Source: Agelas oroides
Lineage: Eukaryota > Porifera > Demospongiae > Agelasida > Agelasidae
NCBI GenBank assembly: GCA_949130485.1
Contig: OX422196.1
Location: 5,980,814 to 6,044,813, forward strand
DNA length: 64,000 nt
Reading direction: 5' to 3'
Part shown: in pieces, positions 3,001-63,760 of the stretch
How positions within the stretch are numbered: the first letter of the stretch is position 1
Layout of the letters: each line of letters opens with the position of its first letter
Made by a program: the position numbers and the translations under genes
Notes under the pieces: generated by a model
Seen by the model: only the letters and a program-made list of their open reading frames with translations
Database searches by the model: none
Told to the model about the DNA's origin: nothing

Positions 3001-6000
3001 ATATCATTGCTCTACTCCAATATATACGATGGCTCTACTTCACACTACATGGCTCTACTACATTCTACCATGGCTCTACTTGACTCTACTTGACTCTACT
3101 ACACTATATCATTGCTAGACCTGGCTGTACTTGACTCTACGACACTCTACCTTGGATCTACTACATTCTACCATGTCTCCACGTGACTCTACTTGACTCT
3201 ACATGACTCCACTACATGCAACCATGGCTCTACTTGTCTCTACTTGACTCTACTACACCCTACCATGTCTCTACTACATTTTACCATGGCTCCACGTGAC
3301 TCTACTTGACTCTACATGACTCCACTACATGCTACCGTGGCTCTACTGGGCTCTACTTGACTCTACTACACTCTACCATGGCTCTACTCCATTGTACCAT
3401 GGCTCTAGTTGACACTACATGACTCTACTACATTCTACCATGGCTCTACTTGTCTCTACTACACTATATGATGGCTCTACTGGCTCTACTTGACTCTACT
3501 ACACTATATCATTGCTAGACCTGGCTGTACTTGTCTCTACTACACTGTACCTTGGCTGTACTACATCCTACCATGGATCCATGTGACTCTACTTCACTCT
3601 ACTACACATTACCATGGCTCTACCTGACTCTACTACATTCTACCATGGTTCTACTTGACCCTACTACACTCTACGATGACTCTACTTAGCTCTACTTGAC
3701 TCTACTACACTATGCCATTGCTTGTCCTGGCTCTACTTGTCTACTACACTCTGCCTTGTCTCTACTACATCCTAGCATGGATCCACGTGACTCTACTTGA
3801 CTCTACTACACTCTACCATGGCTCTACTTGGCTCTACTACATTGTACCATGGCTCTACTTGACTCTACATGACTTTACTACATTCTACCATGGCTCTACT
3901 TGACTCTACTTGACTCTTCTACATTCTACCATGGCTCTACTTGTCTCTACTTGACTCTACTACACCCTACCATGTCTCTACTACATTTTACCATGGCTCC
4001 ACGTGACTCTACTTGGCTCTACATGACTCCACTACATGCTACCGTGGCTCTACTGGGCTCTACTTGATTCTACTCCACTCTACCATGGCTCTACTCCATT
4101 GTATCATGGCTCTAGTTGACACTACATGACTCTACTACATTCTACCATGGCTCTACTTGTCTCTACTACACTCTATGATGGCTCTACTGGCTCTACTTGA
4201 CTCTACTACACTATATCATTGCTAGACCTGGCTGTACTTGTCTCTACTACACTGTACCTTGGCTGTACTACATCCTACCATGGATCCACGTGACTCTACT
4301 TCACTCTACTACACTCTACCATGGCTCTACCTAACTCTACTACATTCTACCATGGCTCTACTTGACTCTACTACACTCTACGATGGCTCTACTTGGCTCT
4401 ACTTGACTCTACTACACTATGCCATTGCTAGTCCTGGCTCTACTTGTCTACTACACTCTGCCTTGTCTCTACTACATTGTACCATGGCTCTACTTGACTC
4501 TACATGACTTTACTACATTCTACCATGGCTCTACTTGACTCTACTTGACTCTACTACATTCTACCATGGATCTACTTGTCTCTACTTGACTCCACTATAC
4601 CCTACCATGTCTCTACTACATTCTACCATGGCTCCACTTGTCTGCACTACATGTGACCGTGGCTCTACTTGGCTCTACTTGACTCTACTACACTCTACCA
4701 TGACTCTACTCCATTGTACCATGGCTCTACTTGACTCTACTTGACTCTACTACATTCTACCATGGCTCTACTTGACTCTACTACACTATATCATTGCTAG
4801 ACCTGGTTGTACTTGTCTCTACTACACTCTACCTTCACTCTACCACATCCTATCATGGATCGACGTGACTCTACTTGACTCTACTACACACTACCATGGC
4901 TCTACCTGGCTCTACTACATTCTACCATGGCTCTACTTGATTCTGCATGAGTCTACTACATTATACCAATGCTGTACTTGACTCTATTTGACTCTAGTAC
5001 ACTCTACGATAGCTCTACGTGGCTCTACATGACTCTACTGCACTCTACCATGCCTCTGCTGCATTCTACCATGTCTCTACTTGTCTCTACTTGACTCTAC
5101 TACACTCTACCATCTCTCTACTACATTCTACCTTGGCTCCACGTGACTCTACTTGCCTCTACATGACTCCACTACATGCTACCGTGGGTCTACTTGGCTC
5201 TACTTGACTCTAGTATACTCTAGCATGGCTCTACTCCATTGTACCATGGCTCTACTTGACACTACATCACTCTACTACATTGTACCATGGCTCTACTTGA
5301 CTCTACTACACTCTACGATGGCTCTACTTCGCTCTACTTGACTCTACTACACTATACCATTGCTACTCCTGGCTCTACTTGTCTACTACACTCTGCCTTG
5401 TCTCTACTACATCCTACCATGGATCCACGTGACTCTACTTGACTCTACTAGACTCTATCATGCCTCTACTTGGCTCTACTACATTCTACAATGACTCTAC
5501 TTGACTCTACATGACTTTACTATATTCTACCATGGCTCTACTTGATTCTACTTGACTCTTCTACATTCTATCATGGCTCTACTTGTCTCTACTTGACTCT
5601 ACTACACCCTACCATGTCTCTACTACATTCTACCATGGCTGCACGTGACTCTACTTGGCTCTACATGACTCCACTACATGCTACCGTGGCTCTACTTGGT
5701 TCTACTTGACTCTACTATACTCTACCATGGCTCTACTCCATTGTACCATGGCTCTACTTGATTCTACTTGACTCTACTACATTCGACCATTGCTCTAGTC
5801 GACTCTACTACACTATATCATTGCTAGACCTGGTTGTACTTGTCTCTACTACACTCTACCTTCGCTCTACCACATCCTACCATGGATCCACGTGACTCTA
5901 CTTGACTCTACTACACTCTACCATGGCTCTATTTGACTCTACATGCCTCTACTACATTCTACCATGGCTCTACTTGACTCTACTTGACTCTACTACATTC

Positions 6001-8217
6001 TACCATGGCTCCACGTGACTCTACTTGACTCTACTGCATTCTACCATGGCTGTACCTGTCTCTACTACATTCCACCATGGCTCTACTTGGCTCTACATGA
6101 CGCTACTACATGCTACCATGGCTCTACTTGGCTATACTTGCATCTACTGCACTCTACCATTGCTCTACTTGGCTCTACTTGACTCTACTACACTCTACCA
6201 TGGCTCTACTCCATTGTACCATTGCTCTACTTGACACTACATGACTCTACTACATTCTACCATGGCTCTACTTGACTCTACTACACTCTACGATGGCTCT
6301 ATTTGGCTCTACTTGACTCTACTACACTATACCATTGCTAGTCCTCGCTCTACTTATCTACTACACTCTATACCTTGTCTCTACTACATCCTACCATGGC
6401 TCCACGTGTCTCTACTTGACTCTACTACACTCTACCATGGCTCTACCTGGCTCTACTACATTCTACAATGGCTCTACTTGGCTCTACATGACTCTACTAC
6501 ATGCTACCATGGCTCTACTTGGCTCTACTTGAGTCTACTACACTCTACCATTGCTCTACTTGGCTCTACTTCACTCTACTACAATCTACCATAGCTCTAC
6601 TCCAATGTATACGATGGCTCTACTTCACACTACATGGCTCTACTACATTCTACCATGCCTCTACTTGACTCTACTACACTCTACGATGGCTCTACTTGGC
6701 TCTACTTGACTCTACTACACTATATGATTGCTAGACCTGGCTGTACTTGTCTCTACTACACTCTACCTTGGCTCTAGTACATCCTACCATGGATCCACGT
6801 GACTCTACTTGACTCTACTACACTCTTCCATGGCTCTACCTTGCTCTACTACATTCTACCATGGCTCTACTTGAGTCTACATGACTCTACTACACTCTAC
6901 CATGGCTCAACTTGGCTCTACTTGAGTCCACTACACTCTATCTTGGGTCTGCTTCGCTCTACTTGACTCTAGTACACTCTACCATGGCTCTACTCCATTG
7001 GATATCATGGCTCTACTTCACACTACATGACTCTACTACATTCTACCATCGCTCTACTTGACTCTACTACAATCTACCATGGCTCAACTTGGCTCTACTT
7101 GACTCTAGTACACTCTACCATGGCTCTACTCCATTGTACCATGGCTCTTCTTGGCACTTCATGATTCTACTGAATTCTAGCATGGCTCTTCTTGACTCTA
7201 CTTGACTCTCCTACACTCTACCATTGCTCTACATGGCTCTACTACACTCTACCATGGCTTTACTTGGCTCTACTACACTCTACCATGGCACTACTTGGCT
7301 CTACTTGACTCTACTACACTCTACCATGTCTATACTTCATTCTACGATAGCTCCACGTGACTCTACGTGACTCTACTACATTCTACCATAGCTCTAATTG
7401 ACTGTGTACGCCTCTACTACATTCTACCTTCGCTCTACTTGACTCTACTTGACTCTACTACATTCTACCATGGCTCTACTTGACTCTACTTGACTGTACT
7501 ACACTCTACCTTTGCTCTACTACATTCTACCATGGCTCCACGTGACTCTACTTGGCTCTACATGACTCCACTACATGCTACCGTGGGTCTACTTGGCTCT
7601 ACTTGTCTCTACTACACTCTACCATGGCTCTACTCCATTGTACCATGTCTGTACTTGACACTACATGACTCTACTACATTCTACCGTGGCTCTACTTGAC
7701 TCTACTACACTCTGCGATGGCTCTACTTGGCTCTACTTGACTCTACTACACTATACCATTGCTAGTCCTGGCTCTACTTATCTAATACACTCTACCTTGT
7801 CTCTACTACATCCTACCATGGCTCCACGTGTCTCTACTTGACTCTACTACACTCTCCCATGGCTCTACCTGGCTCTACTTGGCTCTACATGACTCTACTA
7901 CATGCTACAATGGCTCTACTTGGCTCAACTTGAGTCTACAACACTCTACCATTGCTCTACTTGGCTCTACTTGACTCTACTACACTATATCATTGCTCTA
8001 CTCCAATATATACGATGGCTCTACTTCACACTACATGGCTCTACTACATTCTACCATGGCTCTACTTGACTCTACTTGACTCTACTACACTATATCATTG
8101 CTAGACCTGGCTGTACTTGACTCTACGACACTCTACCTTGGATCTACTACATTCTACCATGTCTCCACGTGACTCTACTTGACTCTACATGACTCCACTA
8201 CATGCAACCATGGCTCT
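1..8217 (+). repeat. Higher-order tandem duplication, period 4,986 bp
   Basis: The sequence from the first base of the window reappears at 4,987 and remains matched to about 3,231 / 8,217, where the copies part: the first reads CTTGTCTCTACTTGAC and the second CTTGGCTCTACTTGAC. Spot checks along the block show the same unusual variants at a constant offset of 4,986, for example the TTGCATCTACTGCAC variant and the TTCGACC variant. The match looks essentially perfect by eye, so this is a recent duplication or a repeated assembly path. The left end lies outside the window, so the true unit may be longer. Confidence 0.9.
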
Positions 8218-11200
8218 ACTTGGCTCTACTTGACTCTACTATACTCTACCATGGCTCTACTCCATTGTACCATGGCTCTACTTGACACTACACGACTCTA
8301 CTACATTCTACCATGGCTCTACTTGACTCTACTACACTATACCATTGCTAGTCCTGGCTCTACTTGTCTGCTACACTCTACCTTGTCTCTACTACATCCT
8401 ACCATGGCTCCACATGACTCTACTTGACTCTACTACACTCTACCATGGCTCTACCTGGTTCTACTACATTCTACAGTGGCTCTACTTGACTCTACATGAC
8501 TCTACTACATTCTACCATGGCTCTACTTTAACTCTACTTGACTCTACTACACTCTATCATGGCTCTACTTGGCTCTTCTTGAGTCCACTACAGTCTTCTT
8601 TGGCTGTAGTTGGCTCTACTTTACTCTACTACACTCTACCATGGCTCTACTCCATTGTATATCATGGCTCTACTTCACACTACATGACTCTACTACATTC
8701 TACCATGGCTCTACTTGACTCTACTACACTCTACGATGGCTCTACTTGGCTATACTTGACTCTACTACACTATATCATTGCTAGACCTGGCTGTACTTGT
8801 CTCTACTACACTCTACCTTGGCTCTACTACATCCTACCATGGATCCGCGTGACTCTACTTGACTCTACTACACTCTAACATTGCTCTACCTTTCTCTACT
8901 ACATTCTACCATGGCTCTACTTGACTCTACATGACTCTACTACACTCTACCATGGCTCTACTTGGCTCTACTTGAGTCCACTACACTCTATCTTGGGTCT
9001 GCTTGGCTCTACTTGACTCTACTACACTCTACCATAGCTCTCCTCCATTGTATATCATGGCTCTACTTCACACTACATGACTCTACTACATTCTACCATC
9101 GCTCTACTTGACTCTACTACACTCTACCATGGCTCTACTACATTGTACCATGGCTCTACTTGAAACTTCATGATTCTACTGAATTCTAGCATTGATCTTC
9201 TTAACTCTACTTGACTCTACTACATTCTACCATGGCTCTACTTGACTCTACTTGACTGTACTACACTCTACCTTGGCTCTACTACATTCTAGCATGGCTC
9301 CACTTGACTCTAGTTAGCTCTACATGACTCCACTACATGCTACCGTGGCTCTACTTGGCTCTACTTGACTCTACTATATTCTACCATGGCTCTACTCCAT
9401 TGTACCATGGCTCTACTTGACACTACACGACTCTACTACATACTACCATGGCTCTACTTGACTCTACTACACTCTACGATGGCTCTACTTGGCTCTACTT
9501 GACTGTACTACACTATACCATTGCTAGTCCTGGCTCTACTTGTCTTCTACACTCTACCTTGTCTCTACTACATCCTACCATGGCTCCATGTGACTCTACT
9601 TGACTCTACTACACTCTATCATGGCTCTACCTGGCTCTACTACATTCTACTATGGCTCTACTTGACTCTACATGACTCTACTACACTCTACCATGGCTGT
9701 ACTTGGCTCTACTTGCGTCCACTACACTCTACTTTGGCTGTACTTGGCTCTACTTTACTCTACTACACCCTACCATCGCTCTACCTGGCTCTACTAAATT
9801 CTACCATGGCTCTACTTGACTCTACATGACTCTACTACATTCTACCATGGCTCTACTTGACTCTACTTGACTCTACTACATTCTACCATGGCTCCACGTG
9901 ACTGTACTTGACTCTACAGCATTCTACCATTGCTGTACCTGGCTCTACTACATTCCACCATGGCTCTACTTGGCTCTACATGACGCTACTACATGCTACC
10001 ATGGCTCTACTTGGCTCTACTTGCGTCTACTGCACTCTACCATTGCTCTACTTGGCTCTACTTGACTCTACTACTCTCTACCATGGCTTTACTCCAATGT
10101 ATACCATGGCTCTACTTCACACTACATGGCTCTACTACATTCTACCATGGCTCCAATTGAATCTACTACACTCTACCATGACTCAACTTGGCTCTACTTG
10201 ACTCTACCAAACTCTACCGTGGCTCTACTTGGCTCTACTTGACTCTACTACACTCTACCATGGGTCTACTCCATTGTACCATGGCTCTACCTGACACTAC
10301 ATGACTCTACTACATTCTACCATGGCTCTACTTGACTCTACTACACTCTACAATGGCTCTACTTGGCTTTACTTGACTCTACTACACTATATCATTGCTA
10401 GTCCTGGCTGTACTTGTCTCTACTACACTCTATCTTGGCTCTACTACATCCTACCATGGATCCACGTGACTCTACTTGACTCTACTACACTCTACCATGG
10501 CTCTACTTGGCTCTACTACACTCTACCATGGCTCTACTTGGCTCTACTTGACTCTACTACACTATACCATTGATAGTCCTGGCTCTACTTGTCTACTACA
10601 CTCTACCTTGTCTCTACTACATCCTACCATGGCTCCACGTGACTCTACTTGACTCTACTACCCTCTATCATGGCTCTACCTGGCTCTTATACATTCTACC
10701 GTGGCTCTACTTGACTCTACATGACTCTACTACACTCTACCATGGCTCTACTTGGCTCTACTTGAGTCCACTACACTCTACTTTGGCTGTACTTGTCTCT
10801 ACTTTGCTCTACTACACTCTTCCATGGCTCTACTTCACTCTACTTGACTCTACTATATTCTACCATGGCTCTACTTCTCTCTACTTGACTCTACTACACA
10901 CTACCATGTCTCTACTACATTCTACCATGGCTACACGTTACTCTACTTGGCTCTACATGACTCCACTTCATGCTACCGTGGCTCTACTTGGCTCTACTTG
11001 ACTCTACTACACTGTACCATGGCTCTACTCCATTGTACCATGGCTCTACTTGACTCTACTTGACTCTACTACATTCTACCATGGCTCTACTTGACTCTAC
11101 TACACTATATCATTGCTAGACCTGGTTGTACTTGTCTCTACTACACTCTACCTTCGCTCTACCACATCCTACCATGGATCCACGTGACTATACTTGACTC

Positions 11201-12770
11201 TACTACACTCTACCATGGCTCTACCTGGCTCCACTACATTCTACCATGGCTCTACTTGACTCTACATGACTCTACTACATTCTACCATGGTTTTACTTGA
11301 CTCTACTTGACTCTACTACATTCTACCATGGCTCCACGTGACTCTACTTGACTCTACTGCATTCTACCATGGCTGTACCTGGCTCTACTACATTCCACCA
11401 TGGCTCTACTTGGCTCTACATGACGCTACTACATGCTATCATGGCTCTACTTGGCTCTACTTGCATCTACTGCACTCTACCATTGCTCTACTTGGCTCTA
11501 CTTGACTCTACTACTCTCTACCATGGCTTTACTCCAATGTATACCATGGCTCTACTTCACACTACATGGCTCTACTACATTCTACCATGGCTCCAATTGA
11601 ATCTACTACACTCTACCATGACTCAACTTGGCTCTACTTGACTCTACTTGACTCTACCACACTCTACCGTGGCTGTACTTGACTCTACTTGACTCTACTA
11701 CACTCTGCATGGGTCTACTCCATTGTACCACGGCTCTACCTGACACTACATGACTCTACTACATTCTACCATGGCTGTACTTGACTCTACTACACTCTAC
11801 GATGGCTCTACTTGGCTTTACTTGACTCTACTACACTATATCATTGCTAGTCCTGGCTGTACTTGTCTCTACTACACTCTATCTTGGCTCTACTACATCC
11901 TACCATGGATCCACGTGACTCTATACTTGACTCTACTACACTCTACCATGGCTCTACCTTGCTCTACTACATTCTACCATGGCTCTACTTGACTCTACAT
12001 GACTCTACTACATTCTATCATGGCTCTACTTGACTAGTAGAGTCAAGTAGAGCCATTGTAGAATGTAGTAGAGTCATGTAGTGTCAAGTAGAGCCATGGT
12101 ACAATGGAGTAGAGCCATGGTAGGGTGTAGTAGAGTCAAGTAGAAACAAGTAGACCCAAGGTAGTGTGTAGTGGACTCAAGTAGAGCCAAGTATAGCCAT
12201 GGTAGAGTGTAGTAGAGTCATCTAGACACTCTACGATGGCTCAACTTGGTGCTACTTGACTCTACTACACTCTACCATGGCTCTACTGCATTGTACAATG
12301 GCTCTACTTGACACTTCATGATTCTACTGAATTCTACCATGGCTCTTCTTGACTCTACTTGACTCTCCTACACCCTACCATTGCTCTACTTGGCTCTACC
12401 ATACACTACAATGGCTCTACTTGGCTCTACGTGACTCTACTACACTCTACCATGGCACTACTTGGCTCTACTTGACTCTACTATACACTCTACCATGTCT
12501 CTACTACATTCTACCATGGCTCCATGTGACTCTACTTTACTCTACTTGACTCTACTATATTCTGCCATGGCTTTACTTGACTCTACTTGACTGTACTACA
12601 CTCTACCATGACTCTACTACATTCTACCATAGCTCCACGTGACTCTACTTGACTCTACTGCATTCTACCATGGCTCTACCTCACTCTACTACATTCTACC
12701 ATGGTTCTACTTGGCTCTACATGACTCTACTACATGCTACCGTGGCTCTACTTGGCTCTACTTGATTCTC
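8179..12770 (+). repeat. Segmental duplication, copy 1 (partner 19,879-24,115)
   Basis: This block matches 19,879-24,115. The offset falls stepwise from 11,700 at 8,179 to 11,682 at 8,881, 11,374 at 9,908, 11,343 at 11,091 and 11,345 at 11,750. The steps mark small deletions in the second copy, the largest about 308 bp. Both copies include the same 185 bp inverted segment and the same rare variants. After about 12,770 the two diverge; in this copy the following satellite has the ordinary TATACACCATGG sequence where the other copy region carries the phosphofructokinase fragment. Confidence 0.8.
12036..12220 (-). repeat. Inverted satellite segment, copy 1
   Basis: For 185 bp the words appear as GTAGAG instead of CTCTAC, so the satellite is flipped relative to the array around it. 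At the left junction GGCTCTACTTGACT (12,022-12,035) faces AGTCAAGTAGAGCC (12,041-12,054) across a 5 bp loop, a perfect 14 bp hairpin. At the right junction AGAGTGT and ACACTCT form a shorter pair around TCTAG. Copies at 23,381-23,565 and 25,017-25,201 have the same junctions, so one inversion event was spread by later duplications. Confidence 0.9.
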
Positions 12771-15423
12771 TCTACTCTACTATGGCTCTAGTTGGCTCTA
12801 CTTGACTCAACTACACTCTACCATGGCTCTACTCCATTGTATACACCATGGCTCTACTTCACACTACATGGCTCTACTACATTCTACCATGGCTCCAATT
12901 GAATCTACTACACTCTACCATGACTCTACTTGGCTCTACTTGACTCTACCACACTCTACCGTGGCTCTACATGGCTCTACTTGACTCTACTACACTCTAC
13001 CATGGCTCTACTCCATTGTACCATGGATCTACTTGACACTACATGACTCTACTACATTCTACCATGGCTCTACTTGACTCTACTACACTCTACAATGGCT
13101 CTATTTGGCTCTACTTGACTCTACTACACTATACCATTGCTAGTCCTGGCTCTACTTATCTACTACACTCTACCTTGTCTCTACTACATCCTACCATGGC
13201 TCCACGTGTCTCTACTTGACTCTACTACACTCTACCATGGCTCTACCTGGCTCTACTACATTCTACCATGACTCTACTTGGCTCTACTTGTCTCTACCAC
13301 ACCCTACCGTGGCTCTACTTGGCTCTACTTGACTCTACTACACTCTACCATGGCTCTACTCCATTGTACCATGGCTCTACTTGATACTACATGACTCTAC
13401 TACATTCTACCATGGCTCTACTTGACTCTACTACACTCTACGATGGCTCTATTTGGCTCTGCTTGACTCTACTACACTATACCATTGCTAGTCCTGGCTC
13501 TACTTATCTACTACACTCTACATTGTCTCTACTACATTCTACCATGGCTCCACGTGTCTCTACTTGACTCTACTACACTCTACCATGGCTCTACCTGGCT
13601 CTACTACATTCTACCATGGCTCTACTGCATTGTATACCATGGCTCTAGTTCACACTACATGGCTGTACTACATTCTACCATGGCTCCAATTGAATCTACT
13701 ACACTCTACCATGAATCTACTTGGCTGTACTTGACTCTACAACACTCTACCGTGGCTCTACTTGGCTCTACTTGACTCTACTACACTCTACCATCGCTCT
13801 ACTCCATTGTACCATGGCTCTACTTGACACTACATGACTCTACTACATTCTACCATGGCTCTACTTGTCTCTACTACACTCTACAATGGCTCTACTGGCT
13901 CTACTTGAATCTACTACACTATATCATTGCTAGACCTGGCTGTACTTGTCTCTACTACACTGTACCTTGGCTGTACTACATCCTCCCATGGATCCACGTG
14001 ACTCTACTTCACTCTACTACACTCTACCATGGCTCTACCTGACTCTACTACAGTCTACCATGGGTCTACTTGACTCTACATCACTTTACTACATTCTACC
14101 ATGGCTCTACTTGATTCTACTTGATTCTACTTGATTCTACTACATTCTACCATGGCTCTACTTGTCTCTACTTGACTCTACTCCACTCTAGCATGTCTCT
14201 ACTACATTCTACCACGACTCCACGTGACTCTACTTGGCTCTACATGACTTCACTACATGCTACCGTGGCTCTACTTGGCTCTACTTGACTCTACTACATT
14301 CTACCATCGCTGTACTCCATTGTACCATGGCTCTACTTGACACTACATGAATCTATTACGTTCTACCATGGCTCTACTTGACACTACATGAATCTATTAC
14401 GTTCTACCATGGCTCTACTCGACTGTACTACACTCTACGATGGCTCTACTTGGCTCTAGTTGACTCTACTACACTATACCATTCCTAGTCCTGGCTCTAC
14501 TTGTCTACTACACTCTGCCTTGTCTCTACTACATTCTACCATGAATCCACGTGACTCTACTTGACTCTACTACACTCTAACATGGCTCTACTTGGTTCTA
14601 CTACATTCTACCATGGCTCTACTTGACTCTACATGACTTTACTATTTTGTACCATGGCTCTACTTGACTCTACTTGACTCTACTACATTCTACCATGGCT
14701 CTACTTGTCTCTACTTGACTCTACTACACCCTAGCATGTGTCTACTACATTCTACCATGGCTCCACGTGACTCTACTTAGCTCTACATGACTCCACTACA
14801 TGCTACCGTGGCTCTACTTGGCTCTACTTGACTCTACTACACTCTACCATGCCTCTACTCCATTGTACCATGGCTCTACTTGACTCTACTTGACTCTACT
14901 ACATTCTACCATTGCTCTACTTGACTCTACTACACTATATCATTGCTAGACCTGGTTGTACTTGTCTCTACTACACTCTACCTTCACTCTACCACATCCT
15001 ACCATGGATCCACGTGACTCTACTTGACTCTACTACACTCTACCATGGCTGTACCTGGCTCTACTACATTCTACCATGGCTCTACTTGACTCTGCATGAC
15101 TCTACTACATTATACCAATGCTGTACTTGACTCTATTTGACTCTAGTACAGTCTACAATAGCTCTACGTGGCTCTACTTGACTCTACTGCACTCTACCAT
15201 GCCTCTACTACATTCTACCATGGCTCTACTTGTCTCTACTTGACTCTACTACACTCTACCATGTCTCTACTACATTCTACCATGGCTCGATATGACTCTA
15301 CTTGGCTCTACATGACTCCACTACATGCTACCGTGGGTCTACTTGGCTCTACTTGACTCTACTACATTCTACCATGGCTCTACTTGACTGTACTACATTC
15401 TACCATGGCTCTACTTGACTCTA

Positions 15424-16837
15424 CATGACTTTACTACATTCTACCATAGCTCTACTTGACTCTACTTGACTCTTCTACATTCTACCATGGCTCTACTTGT
15501 CTCTACTTGACTCTACTACACCCTACCATGTCTCTACTACATTTTACCATGGCTCCACGTGACTCTACTTGGCTCTACATGACTCCACTACATGCTACCG
15601 TGGCTCTACTGGGCTCTACTTGACTCTACTACACTCTACCATGGCTCTACTCCATTGTACCATGGCTCTAGTTGACACTACATGACTCTACTACATTCTA
15701 CCATGGCTCTACTTGTCTCTACTACACTCTATGATGGCTCTACTGGCTCTACTTGACTCTACTACACTATATCATTGCTAGACCTGGCTGTACTTGTCTC
15801 TACTACACTGTACCTTGGCTGTACTACATCCTACCATGGATCCACGTGACTCTAGTTCACTCTACTACACATTACCATGGCTCCACCTGACTCTACTACA
15901 TTCTACCATGGCTCTACTTGACTCTACTACACTCTACGATGGCTCTACGTGGCTCTACTTGACTCTACTACACTATACCATTGCTAGTCCTGGCTCTACT
16001 TGTCTACTACACTCTGCCTTGTCTCTACTACATCCTAGCATGGATCCACGTGACTCTACTTGACTCTACTACACTCTACCATGGCTCTACTTGGCTCTAC
16101 TACATTGTACCATGGCTCTACTTGACTCTACATGACTTTACTACATTCTACCATGGCTCTACTTGACTCTACTTGACTCTTCTACATTCTACCATGGCTC
16201 TACTTGTCTCTACTTGACTCTACTACACCCTACCATGTCTCTACTACATTTTACCATGTCTCCACGTGACTCTACTTGGCTCTACATGACTCCACTACAT
16301 GCTACCGTGGCTCTACTGGGCTCTACTAGACTCTACTCCACTCTACCATGGCTCTACTCCATTGTACCATGGCTCTAGTTGACACTACATGACTCTACTA
16401 CATTCTACCATGGCTCTACTTGTCTCTACTACACTCTATGATGGCTCTACTGGCTCTACTTGACTCTACTACACTATATCATTGCTAGACCTGGCTGTAC
16501 TTGTCTCTACTACACTGTACCTTGGCTGTACTACATCCTACCATGGATCCACGTGACTCTACTTCACTCTACTACACTCTACCATGGCTCTACCTGACTC
16601 TACTACATTCTACCATGGCTCTACTTGACTCTACTACACTCTACGATGGCTCTACTTGGCTCTACTTGACTCTACTACACTATACCATTGCTAGTCCTGG
16701 CTCTACTTGTCTACTACACTCTGCCTTGTCTCTACTACATCCTAGCATGGATCCACGTGACTCTACTTGACTCTACTACACTCTACCATGGCTCTACTTG
16801 GCTCTACTACATTGTACCATGGCTCTACTTGACTCTA
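15424..16837 (+). repeat. 707 bp tandem duplication in the satellite
   Basis: The variant CATGACTTTACTACATTC occurs at 15,424 and again at 16,131, and the following landmarks keep the 707 bp spacing, including the MSLLHCTLAVLHP-encoding stretch at 15,794 and 16,501. Closely related sequence also occurs around 3.9-4.5 kb, so this block has relatives elsewhere in the left half. The two copies differ by scattered single bases, such as CCATAGC against CCATGGC, so they are not a simple assembly echo. Confidence 0.75.
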
Positions 16838-19800
16838 CATGACTTTACTACATTCTACCATGGCTCTACTTGGCTCTACTTGACTCTACTACATTCTACC
16901 GTGGCTCTACTTGTCTCTACTTGACTCCACTATACCCTAACATGTCTCTACTACATTCTACCATGGCTCCACTTGTCTCCACTACATGTGACCGTGGCTC
17001 TACTTGGCTCTACTTGACTCTACTACACTCTACCATGACTCTACTCCATTGTACCATGGCTCTACTTGACTCTACTTGACTCTACTACATTCTACCATGG
17101 CTCTACTTCACTCTACTACACTATATCATTGCTAGACCTGGTTGTACTTGTCTCTACTACACTCTACCTTCACTCTACCACATCCTATCATGGATCCACG
17201 TGACTCTACTTGACTCTACTACACACTACCATGGCTGTACCTGGCTCTACTACATTCTACCATGGCTCTACTTGATTCTGCATGAGTCTGCTACATTATA
17301 CCAATGCTGTACTTGACTCTATTTGACTCTAGTACACTCTACGATAGCTCTACGTGGCTTTACTTGACTCTACTGCACTCTACCATGCCTCTACTGCATT
17401 CTACCATGTCTCTACTTGTCTCTACTTGACTCTACTACACTCTACCATCTCTCTACTACATTCTACCTTGGCTCCACGTGACTCTACTTGCCTCTACATG
17501 ACTCCACTACATGCTACCGTGGGTCTACTTGGCTCTACTTGACTCTACTACACTCTAGCATGGCTCTACTCCATTGTACCATGGCTCTACTTGACACTAC
17601 ATCACTCTACTACATTCTACCATGGCTCTACTTGACTCTACTACACTCTACGATGGCTATACTTCGCTCTACTTGACTCTACTACACTATACCATTGCTA
17701 CTCCTGGCTCTACTTGTCTACTACACTCTGCCTTGTCTCTACTACATCCTACCATGGATCCACGTGACTCTACTTGACTCTACTAGACTCTATCATGCCT
17801 CTACTTGGCTCTACTACATTCTACAATGGCTCTACTTGACTCTACATGACTTTACTATATTCTACCATGGCTCTACTTGATTCTACTTGATTCTTCTACA
17901 TTCTATCATGGCTCTACTTGTCTCTACTTGACTCTACTACACCCTACCATGTCTCTACTACATTCTACCATGGCTGCACGTGACTCTACTTGACTCAACT
18001 ACACTCTATCATGGCTCCACTTGGCTCTACTACATTCTACAATGGCTCTACTTGACTCTACATGACTTTACTATATTCTACCATGGCTCTACTTGATTCT
18101 ACTTGACTCTTCTACATTCTATCATGGCTCTACTTGTCTCTACTTGACTCTACTACACCCTACCATGTCTCTACTACATTCTACCATGGCTGCACGTGAC
18201 TCTACTTGGCTCTACATGACTCCACTACATGCTACCGTGGCTCTACTTGGTTCTACTTGACTCTACTATACTCTACCATGGCTCTACTCCATTGTACCAT
18301 GGCTCTACTTGACTCTACTTGACTCTACTACATTCGACCATTGCTCTAGTTGACTCTACTACACTATATCATTGCTAGACCTGGTTGTACTTGTCTCTAC
18401 TACACTCTACCTTCGCTCTACCACATCCTACCATGGATCCACGTGACTCTACTTGACTCTACTACACTCTACCATGGCTCTACCTGGCTCTACTACATTC
18501 TACCATGGCTCTACTTGACTCTACATGACTCTACTACATTCTACCATGGCTCTACTTGACTCTACTTGACTCTACTACATTCTACCATGGCTCCACGTGA
18601 CTCTACTTGACTCTACTGCATTCTACCATGGCTGTACCTGTCTCTACTACATTCCACCATGGCTTTACTTGGCTCTACATGACGCTACTACATGCTACCA
18701 TGGCTCTACTTGGCTCTACGTGCGTCTACTGCACTCTACCATTGCTGTACTTGGCCCTACTTGACTCTACTACACTCTACCATGGCTCTACTCCATTGTA
18801 CCATGGCTCTACTTGACACTACATGACTCTACTACATTCAACCATGGCTCTACTTGAATCTACTACACTCTACGTCGGCTCTATTTGGCTCTACTTGACT
18901 CTACTACACTATACCATTGCTAGTCCTCGCTCTACTTATCTACTACACTCTACCTTGTCTCTACTACATCCTACCATGGCTCCACGTGTCTCTACTTGAC
19001 TCTACTACACTCTACCATGGCTCTACCTGGCTCTACTACATTCTACCATGACTCTACTTGGCTCTACTTGACTCTACCACACTCTACCGTGGCTCTACTT
19101 GGCTCTACTTGACTCTACTACACTCTACCATGGCTCTACTCCATTGTACCATGGCTCTACTTGATACTACATGACTCTACTACATTCTACCATAGCTCTA
19201 CTTGACTCTAATACACTCTACGATGGCTCTATTTGGCTCTACTTGACTCTACTACACTATACCATTGCTAGTCCTGGCTCTACTTATCTACTACACTCTA
19301 CCTTGTCTCTACTACATCCTACCATGGTTCCACGTGTCTCTACTTGACTCTCCTACACTCTACCATGGCTCTACCTGGCTCTACTACATTCTACCATGGC
19401 TCTACTTGGCTCTACATGACTCTACTACACTATACCATTGCTAGTCCTGGCTCTACTTATCTACTACACTCTACCTTGTCTCTACTACATCCTACCATGG
19501 CTCCACGTGTCTCTACTTGACTCTACTACACTCTACCATGGCTCTACCTGGCTCTACTACATTCTACCATGGCTCTACTTGGCTCTACATGACTCTACTA
19601 CATGCTACCATGGCTCTACTTGGCTCAACTTGAGTCTACAACACTCTATCATTGCTCTACTTGGCTCTACTTGACTCTACTACACTATTTCATTGCTCTA
19701 CTCCAATATATACGATGGCTCTACTTCACACTACATGGCTCTACTACATTCTACCATGGCTCTACTTGACTCTACTTGACTCTACTACACTATATCATTG

Positions 19801-19878
19801 CTAGACCTGGCTGTACTTGACTCTACGACACTCTACCTTGGATCTACTACATTCTACCATGTCTCCACGTGACTCTAC

Positions 19879-22800
19879 TTGACTCTACATGACTCCACTA
19901 CATGCAACCATGGCTCTACTTGGCTCTACTTGACTCTACTATACTCTACCATGGCTCTACTCCATTGTACCATGGCTCTACTTGACACTACACGACTCTA
20001 CTACATTCTACCATGGCTCTACTTGACTCTACTACACTATACCATTGCTAGTCCTGGCTCTACTTGTCTGCTACACTCTACCTTGTCTCTACTACATCCT
20101 ACCATGGCTCCACATGACTCTACTTGACTCTACTACACTCTACCATGGCTCTACCTGGTTCTACTACATTCTACAGTGGCTCTACTTGACTCTACATGAC
20201 TCTACTACATTCTACCATGGCTCTACTTTAACTCTACTTGACTCTACTACACTCTATCATGCCTCTACTTGGCTCTCCTTGAGTCCACTACAGTCTTCTT
20301 TGGCTGTACTTGGCTCTACTTTACTCTACTACACTCTACCATGGCTCTACTCCATTGTATATCATGGCTCTACTTCACACTACATGACTCTACTACATTC
20401 TACCATGGCTCTACTTGACTCTACTACACTCTACGATGGCTCTACTTGGCTATATCATTGCTAGACCTGGCTGTACTTGTCTCTACTACACTCTATACCT
20501 TGGCTCTACTACATCCTACCATGGATCCACGTGACTCTACTTGACTCTACTACACTCTAACATTGCTCTACCTTTCTCTACTACATTCTACCATGGCTCT
20601 ACTTGACTCTACATGACTCTACTACACTCTACCACGGCTCTACTTGGCTCTACTTGAGTCCACTACACTCTATCTTGGGTCTGTTTGTCTCTACTTGACT
20701 CTACTACACTCTACCATAGCTCTCCTCCATTGTATATCATGGCTCTACTTCACACTACATGACTCTACTACATTCTACCATCGCTCTACTTGACTCTACT
20801 ACACTCTACCATGGCTCTACTACATTGTACCATGGCTCTACTTGAAACTTCATGATTCTACTGAATTCTAGCATTGATCTTCTTAACTCTACTTGACTCT
20901 ACTACATTCTACCATGGCTCTACTTGACTCTACTTGACTGTACTACACTCTACCTTGGCTCTACTACATTCTAGCATGGCTCCACTTGACTCTACATGGC
21001 TCTACATGACTCCACTACATGCTACCGTGGCTCTACTTGGCTCTACTTGACTCTACTATATTCTACCATGGCTCTACTCCATTGTACCATGGCTCTACTT
21101 GACACTACACGACTCTACTACATACTACCATGGCTCTACTTGACTCTACTACACTCTACGATGGCTCTACTTGGCTCTACTTGACTGTACTACACTATAC
21201 CATTGCTAGTCCTGGCTCTACTTGTCTTCTACACTCTACCTTGTCTCTACTACATCCTACCATGGCTCCACGTGACTGTACTTGACTCTACAGCATTCTA
21301 CCATGGCTGTACCTGGCTCTACTACATTCCACCATGGCTCTACTTGGCTCTACATGACGCTACTACATGCTACCATGGCTCTACTTGGCTCTACTTGCGT
21401 CTACTGCACTCTACCATTGCTCTACTTGGCTCTACTTGACTCTACTACTCTCTACCATGGCTTTACTCCAATGTATACCATGGCTCTACTTCACACTACA
21501 TGGCTCTACTACATTCTACCATGGCTCCAATTGAATCTACTACACTCTACCATGACTCAACTTGGCTCTACTTGACTCTACCAAACTCTACCGTGGCTCT
21601 ACTTGGCTCTACTTGACTCTACTACACTCTACCATGGGTCTACTCCATTGTACCATGGCTCTACCTGACACTACATGACTCTACTACATTCTACCATGGC
21701 TCTACTTGACTCTACTACACTCTACAATGGCTCTACTTGGCTTTACTTGACTCTACTACACTATATCATTGCTAGTCCTGGCTGTACTTGTCTCTACTAC
21801 ACTCTATCTTGGCTCTACTACATCCTACCATGGATCCACGTGACTCTACTTGACTCTACTACACTCTACCATTGCTCTACTTGGCTCTACTTGACTCTAC
21901 TACACTATACCATTGCTAGTCCTGGCTCTACTTGTCTACTACACTCTACCTTGTCTCTACTACATCCTACCATGGCTCCACGTGACTCTACTTGACTCTA
22001 CTACCCTCTATCATGGCTCTATATGGCTCTAATACATTCTACCATGGCTCTACTTGACTCTACATGACTCTACTACACTCTACCATGGCTCTACTTGGCT
22101 CTACTTGAGTCCACTACACTCTACTTTGGCTGTACTTGGCTCTACTTTGCTCTACTACACTCTTCCATGGCTCTACTTGACTCTACTTGACTCTACTATA
22201 TTCTACCATGGCTCTACTTCTCTCTACTTGACTCTACTTCACACTACCATGTCTCTACTACATTCTACCATGGCTCCACGTGACTCTACTTGGCTCTACA
22301 TAACTCCACTTCATGCTACCGTGGCTCTACTTGGCTCTACTTGACTCTACTACACTGTACCATGGCTCTACTCCATTGTACCATGGCTCTACTTGACTCT
22401 ACGTGACTCTACTACATTCTACCATGGCTCTACTTGACTCTACTACACTATATCATTGCTAGACCTGGTTGTACTTGTCTCTACTACACTCTACCTTCGC
22501 TCTACCACATCCTACCATGGATCCACGTGACTCTACTTGACTCTACTACACTCTACCATGGCTCTACCTGGCTCTACTACATTCTACCATGGCTCTACTT
22601 GACTCTACATGACTCTACTACATTCTACCATGGCTCTACTTGACTCTACTTGACTCTACTACATTCTACCATGGCTCCACGTGACTCTACTTGACTCTAC
22701 TGCATTCTTCCATGGCTGTACCTGGCTCTACTACATTCCACCATGGCTCTACTTGGCTCTACATGACGCTACTACATGCTATCATGGCTCTACTTGGCTC

Positions 22801-24115
22801 TACTTGCGTCTACTGCACTCTACCATTGCTCTACTTGGCTCTACTTGACTCTACTACTCTCTATACCATGGCTTTACTCCAATGTATACCATGGCTCTAC
22901 TTCACACTACATGGCTATACTACATTCTACCATGTCTCCAATTGAATCTACTACACTCTACCATGACTCAACTTGGCTCTACTTGACTCTACTTGACTCT
23001 AACACACTCTACCGTGGCTGTACTTGACTCTACTTGACTCTACTACACTCTGCATGGGTCTCCTCCATTGTACCACGGCTCTACCTGACACTACATGACT
23101 CTACTACATTCTACCATGGCTCTACTTGACTCTACTACACTCTACGATGGCTCTACTTGGCTTTACTTGACTCTACTACACTATATCATTGCTAGTCCTG
23201 GCTGTACTTGTCTCTACTACACTCTATCTTGGCTCTACTACATCCTACCATGGATCCACGTGACTCTATACTTGACTCTACTACACTCTACCATGGCTTT
23301 ATCTTGCTCTACTACATTCTACCATGGCTCTACTTGACTCTACATGACTCTACTACATTCTATCATGGCTCTACTTGACTAGTAGAGTCAAGTAGAGCCA
23401 TTGTAGAATGTAGTAGAGTCATGTAGTGTCAAGTAGAGCCATGGTACAATGGAGTAGAGCCATGGTAGGGTGTAGTAGAGTCAAGTAGAAACAAGTAGAC
23501 CCAAGGTAGTGTGTAGTGGACTCAAGTAGAGCTAAGTAGAGCCATGGTAGAGTGTAGTAGAGTCATCTAGACACTCTACGATGGCTCAACTTGGTGCTAC
23601 TTGACTCTACTACACTCTACCATGGCTCTACTCCATTGTACAATGGCTCTACTTGACACTTCATGATTCTACTGAATTCTACCATGGCTCTTCTTGACTC
23701 TACTTGACTCTCCTACACTCTACCATTGCTCTACTTGGCTCTACCATACACTACAATGGCTCTACTTGGCTCTACGTGACTCTACTACACTCTACCATGG
23801 CACTACTTGGCTCTACTTGACTCTACTATACACTCTACCATGTCTCTACTACATTCTACCATGGCTCCATGTGACTCTACTTTACTCTACTTGACTCTAC
23901 TATATTCTGCCAATGCTTTACTTGACTCTACTTGACTGTACTACACTCTACCATGACTCTACTACATTCTACCATAGCTCCACGTGACTCTACTTGACTC
24001 TACTGCATTCTACCATGGCTCTACCTCACTCTACTACATTCTACCATGGCTCTACTTGGCTCTACATGACTCTACTACATGCTACCGTGGCTCTCCTTGG
24101 CTCTACTTGACTCTA
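19879..24115 (+). repeat. Segmental duplication, copy 2 (partner 8,179-12,770)
   Basis: This is the second copy of the block described at 8,179-12,770. It is shorter by about 350 bp because of internal deletions, mainly between about 21,270 and 21,285, where sequence equivalent to about 9,590-9,890 is missing. Single-base differences are scattered through it, so the copies have had time to diverge a little. The right part of this block was then duplicated again with a 1,636 bp period. Confidence 0.8.
23381..23565 (-). repeat. Inverted satellite segment, copy 2
   Basis: This is the same 185 bp flipped segment as at 12,036, 11,345 bp further on, with identical junctions. It differs at a few positions, for example AGAGCTAAGTAGAGCC where copy 1 has AGAGCCAAGTATAGCC. 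Confidence 0.9.
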
Positions 24116-24358
24116 CTACACTCTACCATGGCTCTACTTGGCTCTACTTGACTCAACTACACTCTACCATGGCTCTACTTCACACTACATGGCTACTATG
24201 GCTGGACGTGTCTCTACTTGACTCTACTGCATTCTACCATGGCTCTACCTCACTCTACTACAATCTACCATGGCTCTACTAGGCTCTACTACACTCTAGC
24301 ATGGCTCTACTTGGCTCTACTTGACTCAACTACACTCTACCATGGCTCTACTCCATTG

Positions 24359-24553
24359 ATGCATCGACAACGGCCAATGCGAATCGCCATCAACACCGGA
24401 GGGGGCGACGCTCCCGGCCTCAACACGGTGGTGCGGGCGGTCGTGATCGCGGCGCAGGGACGGGGCTGGGACGTGGTCGGCATCGAGTGGGGGTACGACG
24501 GCCTCTTTGCGCCAGGCGGCATCGTGGAGCTCGACAGCGCGGTCGTCAGCGGG
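24359..24553 (+). pseudogene. Bacterial-type 6-phosphofructokinase N-terminal fragment, copy 1
   Basis: A 195 bp, strongly GC-rich island interrupts the satellite and reads as 65 codons. The protein starts MHRQRP and continues [16 protein letters not shown], followed by VVRAVV, GWDVVGI and GYDGLF. The GGGDAPGLN stretch is the glycine-rich nucleotide-binding loop at the start of phosphofructokinases, and GYDGL matches the GYEGL/GYDGL segment about 30 residues later. In the family these enzymes phosphorylate fructose 6-phosphate using ATP or pyrophosphate. The fragment stops just before the expected second substrate loop (GGT), so about four fifths of a normal enzyme of over 300 residues is missing. 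Met7 is the more usual start. Base composition is unlike everything else in the window and resembles a high-GC bacterium. The satellite reading frame on both sides is open in phase, but no function is likely. Whether it is captured bacterial DNA or a chimeric assembly cannot be told from sequence alone. Confidence 0.88.
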
Positions 24554-25016
24554 ATGGCTCTACTACATTCTACCAAGGCTCCAATTGAATCTACTACACT
24601 CTACCATGACTCTACTTGGCTCTACTTGACTCTACCATGCACACTCAACCGTGGCTCTACTTGGCTCTACTTGACTCTACTACACTCTACCATGGCTCTA
24701 CTCCATTGTAACATGGCTCTACTTGACACTACATGACTCTACTACATTCTACCATGGCTCCACTTCACTCTACTACACTCTACGATGGCTCTACTTGGCT
24801 CTACTTGACTCTACTACACTATACCATTGCTAGTCCTTGCTCTACTTATCTACTACACTCTATCTTGGCTCTACTACATCCTACCATGGATCCACGTGAC
24901 TCTATACTTGACTCTACTACACTCTACCATGGCTTTATCTTGCTCTACTACATTCTACCATGGCTCTACTTGACTCTACATGACTCTACTACATTCTATC
25001 ATGGCTCTACTTGACT

Positions 25017-25201
25017 AGTAGAGTCAAGTAGAGCCATTGTAGAATGTAGTAGAGTCATGTAGTGTCAAGTAGAGCCATGGTACAATGGAGTAGAGCCATG
25101 GTAGGGTGTAGTAGAGTCAAGTAGAAACAAGTAGACCCAAGGTAGTGTGTAGTGGACTCAAGTAGAGCTAAGTAGAGCCATGGTAGAGTGTAGTAGAGTC
25201 A
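25017..25201 (-). repeat. Inverted satellite segment, copy 3
   Basis: This is the flipped segment carried by the second unit of the 1,636 bp tandem duplication. It matches copy 2, sharing the AGAGCTAAG variant, so it descends from copy 2 rather than from copy 1. Confidence 0.9.
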
Positions 25202-25994
25202 TCTAGACACTCTACGATGGCTCAACTTGGTGCTACTTGACTCTACTACACTCTACCATGGCTCTACTCCATTGTACAATGGCTCTACTTGACACTTCAT
25301 GATTCTACTGAATTCTACCATGGCTCTTCTTGACTCTACTTGACTCTCCTACACTCTACCATTGCTCTACTTGGCTCTACCATACACTACAATGGCTCTA
25401 CTTGGCTCTACGTGACTCTACTACACTCTACCATGGCACTACTTGGCTCTACTTGACTCTACTATACACTCTACCATGTCTCTACTACATTCTACCATGG
25501 CTCCATGTGACTCTACTTTACTCTACTTGACTCTACTATATTCTGCCAATGCTTTACTTGACTCTACTTGACTGTACTACACTCTACCATGACTCTACTA
25601 CATTCTACCATAGCTCCACGTGACTCTACTTGACTCTACTGCATTCTACCATGGCTCTACCTCACTCTACTACATTCTACCATGGCTCTACTTGGCTCTA
25701 CATGACTCTACTACATGCTACCGTGGCTCTCCTTGGCTCTACTTGACTCTACTACACTCTACCATGGCTCTACTTGGCTCTACTTGACTCAACTACACTC
25801 TACCATGGCTCTACTTTACACTACATGGCTACTATGGCTGGACGTGTCTCTACTTGACTCTACTGCATTCTACCATGGCTCTACCTCACTCTACTACAAT
25901 CTACCATGGCTCTACTAGGCTCTACTACACTCTAGCATGGCTCTACTTGGCTCTACTTGACTCAACTACACTCTACCATGGCTCTACTCCATTG

Positions 25995-26189
25995 ATGCAT
26001 CGACAACGGCCAATGCGAATCGCCATCAACACCGGAGGGGGCGACGCTCCCGGCCTCAACACGGTGGTGCGGGCGGTCGTGATCGCGGCGCAGGGACGGG
26101 GCTGGGACGTGGTCGGCATCGAGTGGGGGTACGACGGCCTCTTTGCGCCAGGCGGCATCGTGGAGCTCGACAGCGCGGTCGTCAGCGGG
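25995..26189 (+). pseudogene. Bacterial-type 6-phosphofructokinase N-terminal fragment, copy 2
   Basis: This is an identical second copy of the GC-rich island, exactly 1,636 bp after the first, with the same junctions: CTCCATTG on the left and ATGGCTCTACTACATTC on the right. It encodes the same 65 residues with the GGGDAPGLN nucleotide-binding loop and the same abrupt end. Because the surrounding satellite is duplicated with it, it arose by copying the host segment and not by a second insertion. Confidence 0.88.
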
Positions 26190-28040
26190 ATGGCTCTACT
26201 ACATTCTACCAAGGCTCCAATTGAATCTACTACACTCTACCATGACTCTACTTGGCTCTACTTGACTCTACCATGCACACTCAACCGTGGCTCTACTTGG
26301 CTCTACTTGACTCTACTACACTCTACCATGGCTCTACTCCATTGTAACATGGCTCTACTTGACACTACATGACTCTACTACATTCTACCATGGCTCCACT
26401 TCACTCTACTACACTCTACGATGGCTCTACTTGGCTCTACTTGACTCTACTACACTATACCATTGCTAGTCCTTGCTCTACTTATCTACTACACTCTACC
26501 TTGTCTCTACTACATCCTACCATGGCTCCATGTGTCTCTACTTCACTCTACTACACTCTACCATGGCTCTACCTGGCTCTACTACATTCTACCATGGCTC
26601 TACTTGGCTCTACATGACTCTACTACATGCTACCATGGCTCTACTTGGCTCTACTTGAGTCTACTACACTCTACCATTGCTCTACTTGGCTCTACTTGAC
26701 TCTACTACACTCTACCATGGCTCTACTCCAATGTATATACCATGGCTCTACTTCACCTACATGGCTGTACTACATTCTACCATGGCTCTACTTGACTCTA
26801 CTATACTCTACGATGGCTCTACTTGGCTCTACTTGACTCTACTACACTATATCATTGCTAGACCTGGCTGTACTTGTCTCTACTACACTCTACCTTGGCT
26901 CTACTACATCCTACCATGGATCAACGTGACTCTACTTGAGTCTACTACACTCTACCATGGCTCTACCTTGTTCGACTGCATTCTATACCATGGCTCTACT
27001 TGACTCTACATGACTCTACTACTCTCTACCATGGCTCTACTTGGCTCTACTTGAGTCAATTACACTCTATTTTGGGTCTGCTTGGCTCTACTTGACTCTA
27101 GTACACTCTACCATGGCTCTACTCCATTGTATATCATGGCTCTACTTCACACTACATGACTCTACTACATTCTACCATCGCTCTACTTGACTCTACTACA
27201 CTCTACCATGGCTCAACTTGGCTATACTTGACTCTACTACACTCTACCATGACTCTAATACATTCTACCATGGCTCTACTTGGCTCTATATGACTCTACT
27301 ACATGCTACCGTGGCTCTACTTGATTCTCTACACTCTACTATGGCTCTAGTTGGCTCTACTTGACACAACTACACTCTACCATGGCTCTACTCCATTGTA
27401 TACACCATGGCTCTACTTCACACTACATGGCTCTACTACATTCTACCATGGCTCCAATTGAATCTACTACACTCTACCATGACTCTACTTGGTTCTACTT
27501 TACTCTACCACACTCTACCGTGGCTCTACTTGGCTCTACTTGACTCTACTACACTCTACCATGGCTCTACTCCATTGTACCATGGCTCTACTTGACACTA
27601 CATGACTCTTCTACATTCTACCATGGCTCTACTTGACTCTACTACACTCTACGATGGCTCTACTTGGCTCTACTTGACTCTACTACACTATACCATTGCT
27701 AGTCCTGGCTCTACTTATCTACTACACTCTACCTTGTCTCTACTATTTCCTACCATGGCTCCATGTGTCTCTACTTGACTCTACTACACTCTACCATGGC
27801 TCTACCTGGCTCTACTACATTCTACCATGGCTCTACTTGGCTCTACATGACTCTACTACATGCTACCATGGCTCTACTTGGCTCTACTTGAGTCTACTAC
27901 ACTCTACCATTGCTCTACTTGGCTCTACTTCACTCTACTACAATCTACCATAGCTCTACTCCAATGTATACGATGGCTCTACTCCACACTACATGGCTCT
28001 ACTACATTCTACCATGCCTCTACTTGACTCTACTACACTC

Positions 28041-28240
28041 NNNNNNNNNNNNNNNNNNNNNNNNNNNNNNNNNNNNNNNNNNNNNNNNNNNNNNNNNNNN
28101 NNNNNNNNNNNNNNNNNNNNNNNNNNNNNNNNNNNNNNNNNNNNNNNNNNNNNNNNNNNNNNNNNNNNNNNNNNNNNNNNNNNNNNNNNNNNNNNNNNNN
28201 NNNNNNNNNNNNNNNNNNNNNNNNNNNNNNNNNNNNNNNN
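28041..28240. other. Assembly gap of 200 N
   Basis: There are exactly 200 unknown bases, a round number typical of a scaffolding placeholder and not of a measured gap. The satellite changes orientation here: CTCTAC words end at 28,040 and GTAGAG words begin at 28,241. The true distance, and the relative orientation of the two sides, are therefore uncertain. Apparent proteins spanning this interval are meaningless. Confidence 0.99.
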
Positions 28241-62927: not shown

Positions 62928-63179
62928 GGGGTCGTTATGTATTGTTTGCGTACAATTTGGACAGCGAAAAGTGTCAGTTATACAGAGTAGTGGGGTGTAT
63001 TAAAGTCTATGGAGAAATGGTCGGGACTTTCAGAATCGTCTGTTATATCATGGGTGTCCGTGGTTGAGGGGTGTCCGTTCAATCATACAGATTGCCATAG
63101 CAGCGCATACTGAAGGGTGAAATCAAAAACATTTACTCTTTTGTTTTGGTCCTTAGTTGATACTGCAAGGGTGAGTTCT
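62928..63179 (+). repeat. Long inverted repeat X, left arm
   Basis: About 252 bp, from GGGGTCGTTATG to GGGTGAGTTCT, reappears inverted at 63,499-63,760. The arms are highly similar; the right arm has a roughly 9 bp insertion (TTCTAATGT when read on the minus strand). The arm contains pogo/Tigger-like GGGGTGTCCGTTC sequence. The 67-codon frame starting at 62,864 is a translation of this repeat; a related frame exists on the minus strand in the other arm. Confidence 0.88.
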
Positions 63180-63498: not shown

Positions 63499-63760
63499 AG
63501 AACTCACCCTTGCAGTATCAACTAAGGACCAAAACAAAAGAGTAAATGTTTTTGATTTCACCCTTCAGTATGTGCTGCTATGGCAATCTGTATGATTGAA
63601 CGGACACCCCTCAACCACGGACACCCATGATATAACGGACGATTCTGAAAGTCCCGACCACTTCTCCATAGACTTTAATACATTAGAAACACCCCACTAC
63701 TCTGTATAACTGACACTTTTCGTGGTCCAAATTGTACGCAAACAATACATAACGACCCCG
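63499..63760 (-). repeat. Long inverted repeat X, right arm
   Basis: This is the inverted partner of 62,928-63,179, beginning AGAACTCACCCTTGC and ending CATAACGACCCC. The arm is about 10 bp longer than its partner because of one insertion near 63,680-63,690. Confidence 0.88.

Follow-up and report, generated by a model that had tools for sequence, protein, structure and literature searches.

The window analysed here is a stretch of 64,000 nucleotides (C14:5980814-6044813) on an 8.7-Mb contig, C14, of a host assembly of 259 Mb in 141 contigs. Its left part is a tandem satellite with a GC content of about 44%, within which lie two copies of a short GC-rich island encoding the start of a bacterial-type phosphofructokinase (PFK); the coordinates of these and of the associated repeat units are collected in Table 1. 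Beyond a scaffold gap the satellite continues from position 28241 to about 58,200 in the opposite orientation, rich there in the reverse complement of the CTCTAC of the left part, and the change of orientation at the gap reflects either a true pair of inverted arrays or a scaffold join made in the wrong orientation. To the right of the satellite lies non-satellite DNA that contains a gene for a secretin-family 7-transmembrane receptor, seen as two open frames that match the Pfam domain 7tm_2 (4.7e-13 and 5.6e-7). Near the right end of the window, positions of about 63030-63080 and 63590-63640 appear by eye to be mutually inverted copies, possibly the arms of a transposon other than the one described below.

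Table 1. Features of the window, with positions counted from its first nucleotide.
Feature	Position	Strand	Basis
CTCTAC-rich host satellite; called periods include 31, 41 and 72	1..28040	+	TRF and k-mer scans
Likely empty site: second island-free satellite unit	10981..12172	+	Joined island flanks 86% over 1,228 columns; 26 bp in the island's place
Likely empty site: neighbouring island-free satellite unit	22284..23517	+	Joined island flanks 86% over 1,249 columns; 26 bp in the island's place
First unit of recent direct duplication, carries copy 1	23213..24894	+	Self-comparison at a shift of 1636 bp; 4 mismatches in 1,682 bp
Island copy 1: first 59 codons of Longimicrobiales-type pfkA plus the 18 bp before them	24359..24553	+	Translation; Pfam PF00365; DNA identity to OY282361.1
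Second unit of direct duplication, carries copy 2	24849..26530	+	Same self-comparison
Island copy 2, same sequence as copy 1	25995..26189	+	BLAST within the window; genome search
Scaffold gap of 200 N; satellite orientation flips beyond it	28041..28240	.	Sequence and satellite scans

In the genome as a whole the satellite is common: a genome-wide pattern search with a 29-base consensus gave 42,324 plus 27,574 matches with at most two mismatches, and the reversed pattern, which served as a control, gave 0. The analysis covered about 189 kb of this satellite on C14, leaving out the 813 bp immediately before the window; its leftward continuation contains a third copy of the island at C14:5890070-5892158, and a 15-kb non-satellite block at C14:5843279-5858622 separates two parts of the array. 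Besides the three islands and a transposon that lies within copy 3, a k-mer scan of these 189 kb detected no non-satellite insert longer than 26 bp. Satellite blocks of 185 bp in inverted orientation occur at window positions 23382-23566 and 25018-25202, and further short inverted blocks lie near window positions 11990-12190 and near C14:5889001-5889200, the latter upstream of island copy 3. These blocks are similarly placed in a larger repeat unit and may serve as a marker of a higher-order unit of the array.

The island is 195 bp long and its translation, which contains the run WGYDGLF, matches positions 1-55 of the 277 in the Pfam PFK profile (PF00365) with an E-value of 2.7e-12. A preliminary description, made from the letters of the window, had reported the GC-rich start of a bacterial-type phosphofructokinase here, and its coordinates prove to be exact; the profile match, a GC content of 69.7% and the DNA identity to a bacterial gene given below all bear it out. 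That the island is the beginning of the gene holds for the 59 codons; the first 18 bp, however, precede the start codon and resemble by eye a bacterial upstream region. The surrounding DNA is a host satellite, as had been proposed, but the 28 kb assigned to it are merely the part to the left of the scaffold gap. The statement that these 28 kb hold no other foreign sequence does not stand, as copy 2 matches copy 1 at 208/208 bases, short flanks included, in a BLAST comparison within the window.

A Longimicrobiales source for the island

A chance resemblance is excluded because the DNA of the island is 93% identical to a bacterial pfkA gene. A search of bacterial genomes, of the kind recommended at the outset, places the donor within the Longimicrobiales, the best match being OY282361.1, the chromosome of a metagenome-assembled genome from this order. 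In a scan for relatives with one genome per species, which gave the best 80 of 112 related loci, the first 18 rows were all Gemmatimonadota. Across 177 nucleotides the pfkA gene of OY282361.1 agrees with copies 1 and 2 at 164 positions (92.7%) and with copy 3 at 168 (94.9%), and the second-best relative among the 22 compared reaches 135/177 (76%), in an ungapped comparison that scores three loci too low, namely L036 through a one-codon shift and L034 and L038 through differences in length. A tree was built from copies 1 and 3 and 30 hand-picked bacterial genes, 28 of them from Gemmatimonadota or its orders and two from Myxococcaceae. The copies group with the OY282361.1 gene (support 100/98) and copies 1 and 3 are sisters (99/80), while many of the other forks are weak because the alignment has only 177 columns. 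Matches were obtained in 72 of the 121 genomes searched from the donor's family, and with at most six candidates scored per genome, identities above 79% over at least 100 bp occurred only in the donor genome, pieces shorter than 100 bp exceeding 79% in some others. The island leader, GCATCGACAACGGCCA, is similar by eye to the bases preceding the start codon of the donor gene, CTTCGACAAGGAGACCCCA. The island thus comes from a pfkA gene of a member of the Longimicrobiales, an order of the Gemmatimonadota.

The identity of 92.7-94.9% to Longimicrobiales pfkA places the fragment with a bacterial lineage rather than with the host, whose own PFK genes are separate loci on contig C20. A DNA search of the genome with the island did not match these genes, and a PFK-family search of the assembly found, apart from the islands, only the C20 genes. 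When 6.2 kb around the donor gene was compared with the host assembly, only the islands were matched, and neither the remainder of the bacterial gene nor its neighbours were found. The host PFK genes form two loci that face each other at C20:2124094-2129893, each with two PFK domain matches, and their open frames run for 831 and 938 residues without a stop; so few introns seem unusual for an animal gene. Bacterial 16S was also searched for in the assembly, and among the best 5 of 3206 candidates, which were those scored, matches of 518 bits on C141, 192 bits on C92 and 122 bits on C5 lay above the cut-off. The C141 match is probably mitochondrial and none of these three appears to be a full bacterial 16S, although as a control this is weak because of the small share of candidates scored.

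Genomes of sponge- and coral-associated symbionts are included in the Longimicrobiales (PMC10581226). Several other near relatives have bin names that presumably derive from sponge studies. In our reading the donor bacterium was most likely one of the host animal's symbionts, and the donor, together with general features, suggests that the host is probably a sponge.

Three copies, a host transposon and the insertion site

A genome search with the island returned four match pieces, which correspond to copy 1, copy 2 and the two halves of copy 3. On C14, copies 1 and 2 start at 6005172 and 6006808, and copy 3 lies 115 kb upstream. Copies 1 and 2 are identical because a stretch of 1,682 bp is directly repeated here; the mismatches between the two repeats fall at 24181, 24863, 24868 and 24890, the last three lying no more than 32 bp from the distal edge. 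Near-identity of this kind could arise if the assembler had doubled a single unit, but the four mismatches, one of which is deep inside the duplicated unit, speak against this. Copy 3 differs from copies 1 and 2 at 6 of the 195 island positions (3.1%, interval 1.1-6.6) and, in a longer left flank, from copy 1 at 24 of 918 positions (2.6%, gaps left out). With the donor as outgroup, five changes are assigned to the branch leading to copies 1 and 2 and one to the branch leading to copy 3. The bases bordering the island are identical on both sides in all three copies, which have both end points in common.

Copy 3 is interrupted after base 108 by an element of 1.88 kb (C14:5890179-5892061) with inverted repeats of 104 bp that are 92% complementary. 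The element is flanked by an exact 9-bp target duplication, GGACGGGGC, of a length that we take to be typical of Mutator-like elements. It has no long open frame, the longest stop-to-stop stretch being 97 residues. A search for its relatives gave 343 first-look candidates, of which the best 40 were scored; these comprise at least 177 match pieces, with at least 16 contigs among the matches listed. In 12 copies of the element the target duplication was an exact 9 bp in seven, longer and exact in two, with one mismatch in one and not found in two. The element is a multicopy host transposon, and its presence within copy 3, together with its target duplication and on a contig of 8.7 Mb, establishes that the bacterial fragment is physically integrated in a host chromosome.

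These observations bear directly on whether the island is an artefact. A library or assembly chimera, in which a bacterial fragment was ligated to the satellite or joined to it by the assembler, was our first hypothesis. Satellite arrays assemble poorly, the 200-N gap is 1.85 kb from copy 2, and microbe-rich animal samples contain much bacterial DNA. The hypothesis was dropped when the genome search revealed copy 3, which has diverged and contains a transposon. A chimera is not plausible because there are three copies with common junctions, because one of them has diverged from the others, and because a host transposon with its target duplication lies within that copy; that is, the junctions are not unique and a host event has taken place inside the island. 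Given copy 3, this explanation is very unlikely. The preliminary description had offered a chimera as the alternative to capture of bacterial DNA by the satellite, and it is the latter that the shared end points, the sequence differences and the transposon support. The insert looks like a genuine old capture rather than a sequencing accident, because it is present three times in the satellite and one copy was later split by a host transposon.

The site of insertion can be approached through satellite units that have no island. Two such units are aligned with the joined island flanks in Table 1, one of which overlaps at its end the beginning of the duplicated unit, and another island-free unit (E1) has by eye 28 bp at the position of the island. 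From these comparisons it seems that about 26 bp of satellite gave way to the insert, which would agree with the capture of a stray fragment during the repair of a break. This is a statement about an ancestral unit, because the island flanks and the island-free units differ by about 14%. When single flanks were paired with the array, they had seemed to overlap by about 150 bp where the island entered; this reading was rejected as an effect of satellite register once the joined-flank search gave the 26-bp replacement. At the right junction the bases AT are shared with the donor; microhomology at this point is only suggestive, because a donor divergence of 5-7% blurs the last bases of each junction.

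Single insertion followed by copying is favoured mainly because the end points are identical in all three copies; similarity of the flanks, taken alone, is weak support for it. Over 250 bp to the left of the island copy 1 and copy 3 differ at 5 of 249 positions, as against 11-18 mismatches for five island-free units, and over 250 bp to the right at 5 of 245, as against 8-14, copy 3 being the nearest on both sides among the six places compared. With a right flank of 150 bp copy 3 has 3 mismatches and the island-free units 3-4, and with one of 400 bp an island-free unit matches the level of copy 3 (94.5 versus 94.25%). The alignments behind the 150-bp and 250-bp counts place no constraint on gaps in the units used for comparison. 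Because the duplicated unit ends 341 bp from the island, a match between right flanks longer than this is not expected. The weak signal in the right flank lowers one line of evidence and leaves integration intact.

The fragment might have been carried into the satellite inside a mobile element or a virus rather than by break repair. A few foreign bases at its ends could be overlooked, since OY282361.1 may not be the donor strain itself. However, both junctions change from bacterial homology to satellite within a few bases, no further non-satellite sequence adjoins copies 1 and 2, and the genome search places the fragment at these three sites only, all of which makes carriage of this kind improbable.

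Coding capacity and proposed history

The island is not a complete gene, and its changes look as they would without selection. A functional role, with the transferred gene or exon maintained by selection and expressed within a longer host protein, would agree with the position of copy 1 inside a stop-free frame of 194 residues and with a frame of equal length for copy 2. Yet other frames are likewise open in the adjoining satellite, and the 194-residue frame is no evidence of a gene. Of the PFK domain only profile positions 1-55 are represented, copy 3 is broken by the transposon, and of the six changes that arose after the copies separated five are nonsynonymous, as under neutrality, where a proportion of 0.73 is expected by chance. 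These changes fit neutral decay, six being too few to exclude weak selection, and the fragment is likely to be without function. We regard a working gene as extremely unlikely.

Our preferred account is that a short fragment of a Longimicrobiales chromosome was captured in the satellite during break repair, multiplied by amplification of the array and carried as a neutral passenger, and we put its probability at about 90%. Contact with the donor would have come through symbiosis, and a break inside the satellite array would have been repaired with the fragment, about 26 bp of satellite probably being lost at a site whose exact form before the insertion we reconstruct from the island-free units. 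The island-bearing unit would then have been multiplied by ordinary array amplification, perhaps by unequal exchange or conversion. In relative order, the insertion would have come first, and the unit would next have been copied into two locations, which then had separate histories. In one of these, 115 kb away, a host DNA transposon would later have struck the fragment, giving copy 3; the other would have acquired most of the substitutions and then undergone the recent tandem duplication of 1,636 bp that gave copies 1 and 2. Throughout, the fragment would have been a passenger in neutral decay.

Relation to known inserts and significance

Three published accounts allow a comparison with known systems. 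The nuwts of Drosophila ananassae are Wolbachia DNA that lies in the heterochromatin of a chromosome, was multiplied after insertion and is possibly functionless (PMC4299567). The island is alike in being bacterial DNA, most likely of a symbiont, in an animal chromosome that multiplied after insertion and possibly has no function, but the nuwts are large and amount to several Wolbachia genomes, whereas the island is 195 bp of Gemmatimonadota DNA inside a satellite unit. Numts are inserted by end joining, repair with microhomology has been observed, and 54% of events are without deletion (PMC2567098). They too are fragments captured at a break, which for the island is our reading of the junctions; they differ in having an organelle as donor, whereas the island has a bacterial donor and about 26 bp apparently lost. 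In a sponge genome, transferred bacterial genes have reportedly acquired host features and are expressed (PMC4784904); these share with the island the presence of bacterial DNA in an animal genome, which here too is probably that of a sponge, but they are host-like and expressed whereas the island is a functionless-looking fragment. The main text of that study makes no mention of phosphofructokinase, gemmatimonad or satellite as terms, and the titles and abstract openings among the literature matches listed do not describe a bacterial fragment as part of a satellite unit. The island is a numt-like insert, most likely from a symbiont, unusual in its donor and in riding a satellite. Symbiont inserts in animals, and their multiplication, were already known; a bacterial fragment within a satellite unit appears to be new.

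It is easy to write off a short bacterial insert in an animal genome as contamination. This island carries its own proof of integration, in the form of a host transposon within the bacterial DNA and of diverged satellite copies. Genuine inserts in other symbiont-rich genomes could be recognised by a simple screen for bacterial fragments that have repeat-unit junctions in common or are cut by a host transposon. A broader and rather doubtful extension, based on one captured fragment in about 189 kb of the C14 array, is that symbiont DNA may be trapped and amplified by the satellite arrays of microbe-rich animals, a captured fragment joining the repeat unit and spreading along with it, and that the arrays throughout this genome could hold a datable record of past symbionts. 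If our account is true, DNA from a Gemmatimonadota bacterium, not one of the classical intracellular germ-line symbionts, would have entered an animal chromosome and been multiplied there by satellite turnover.
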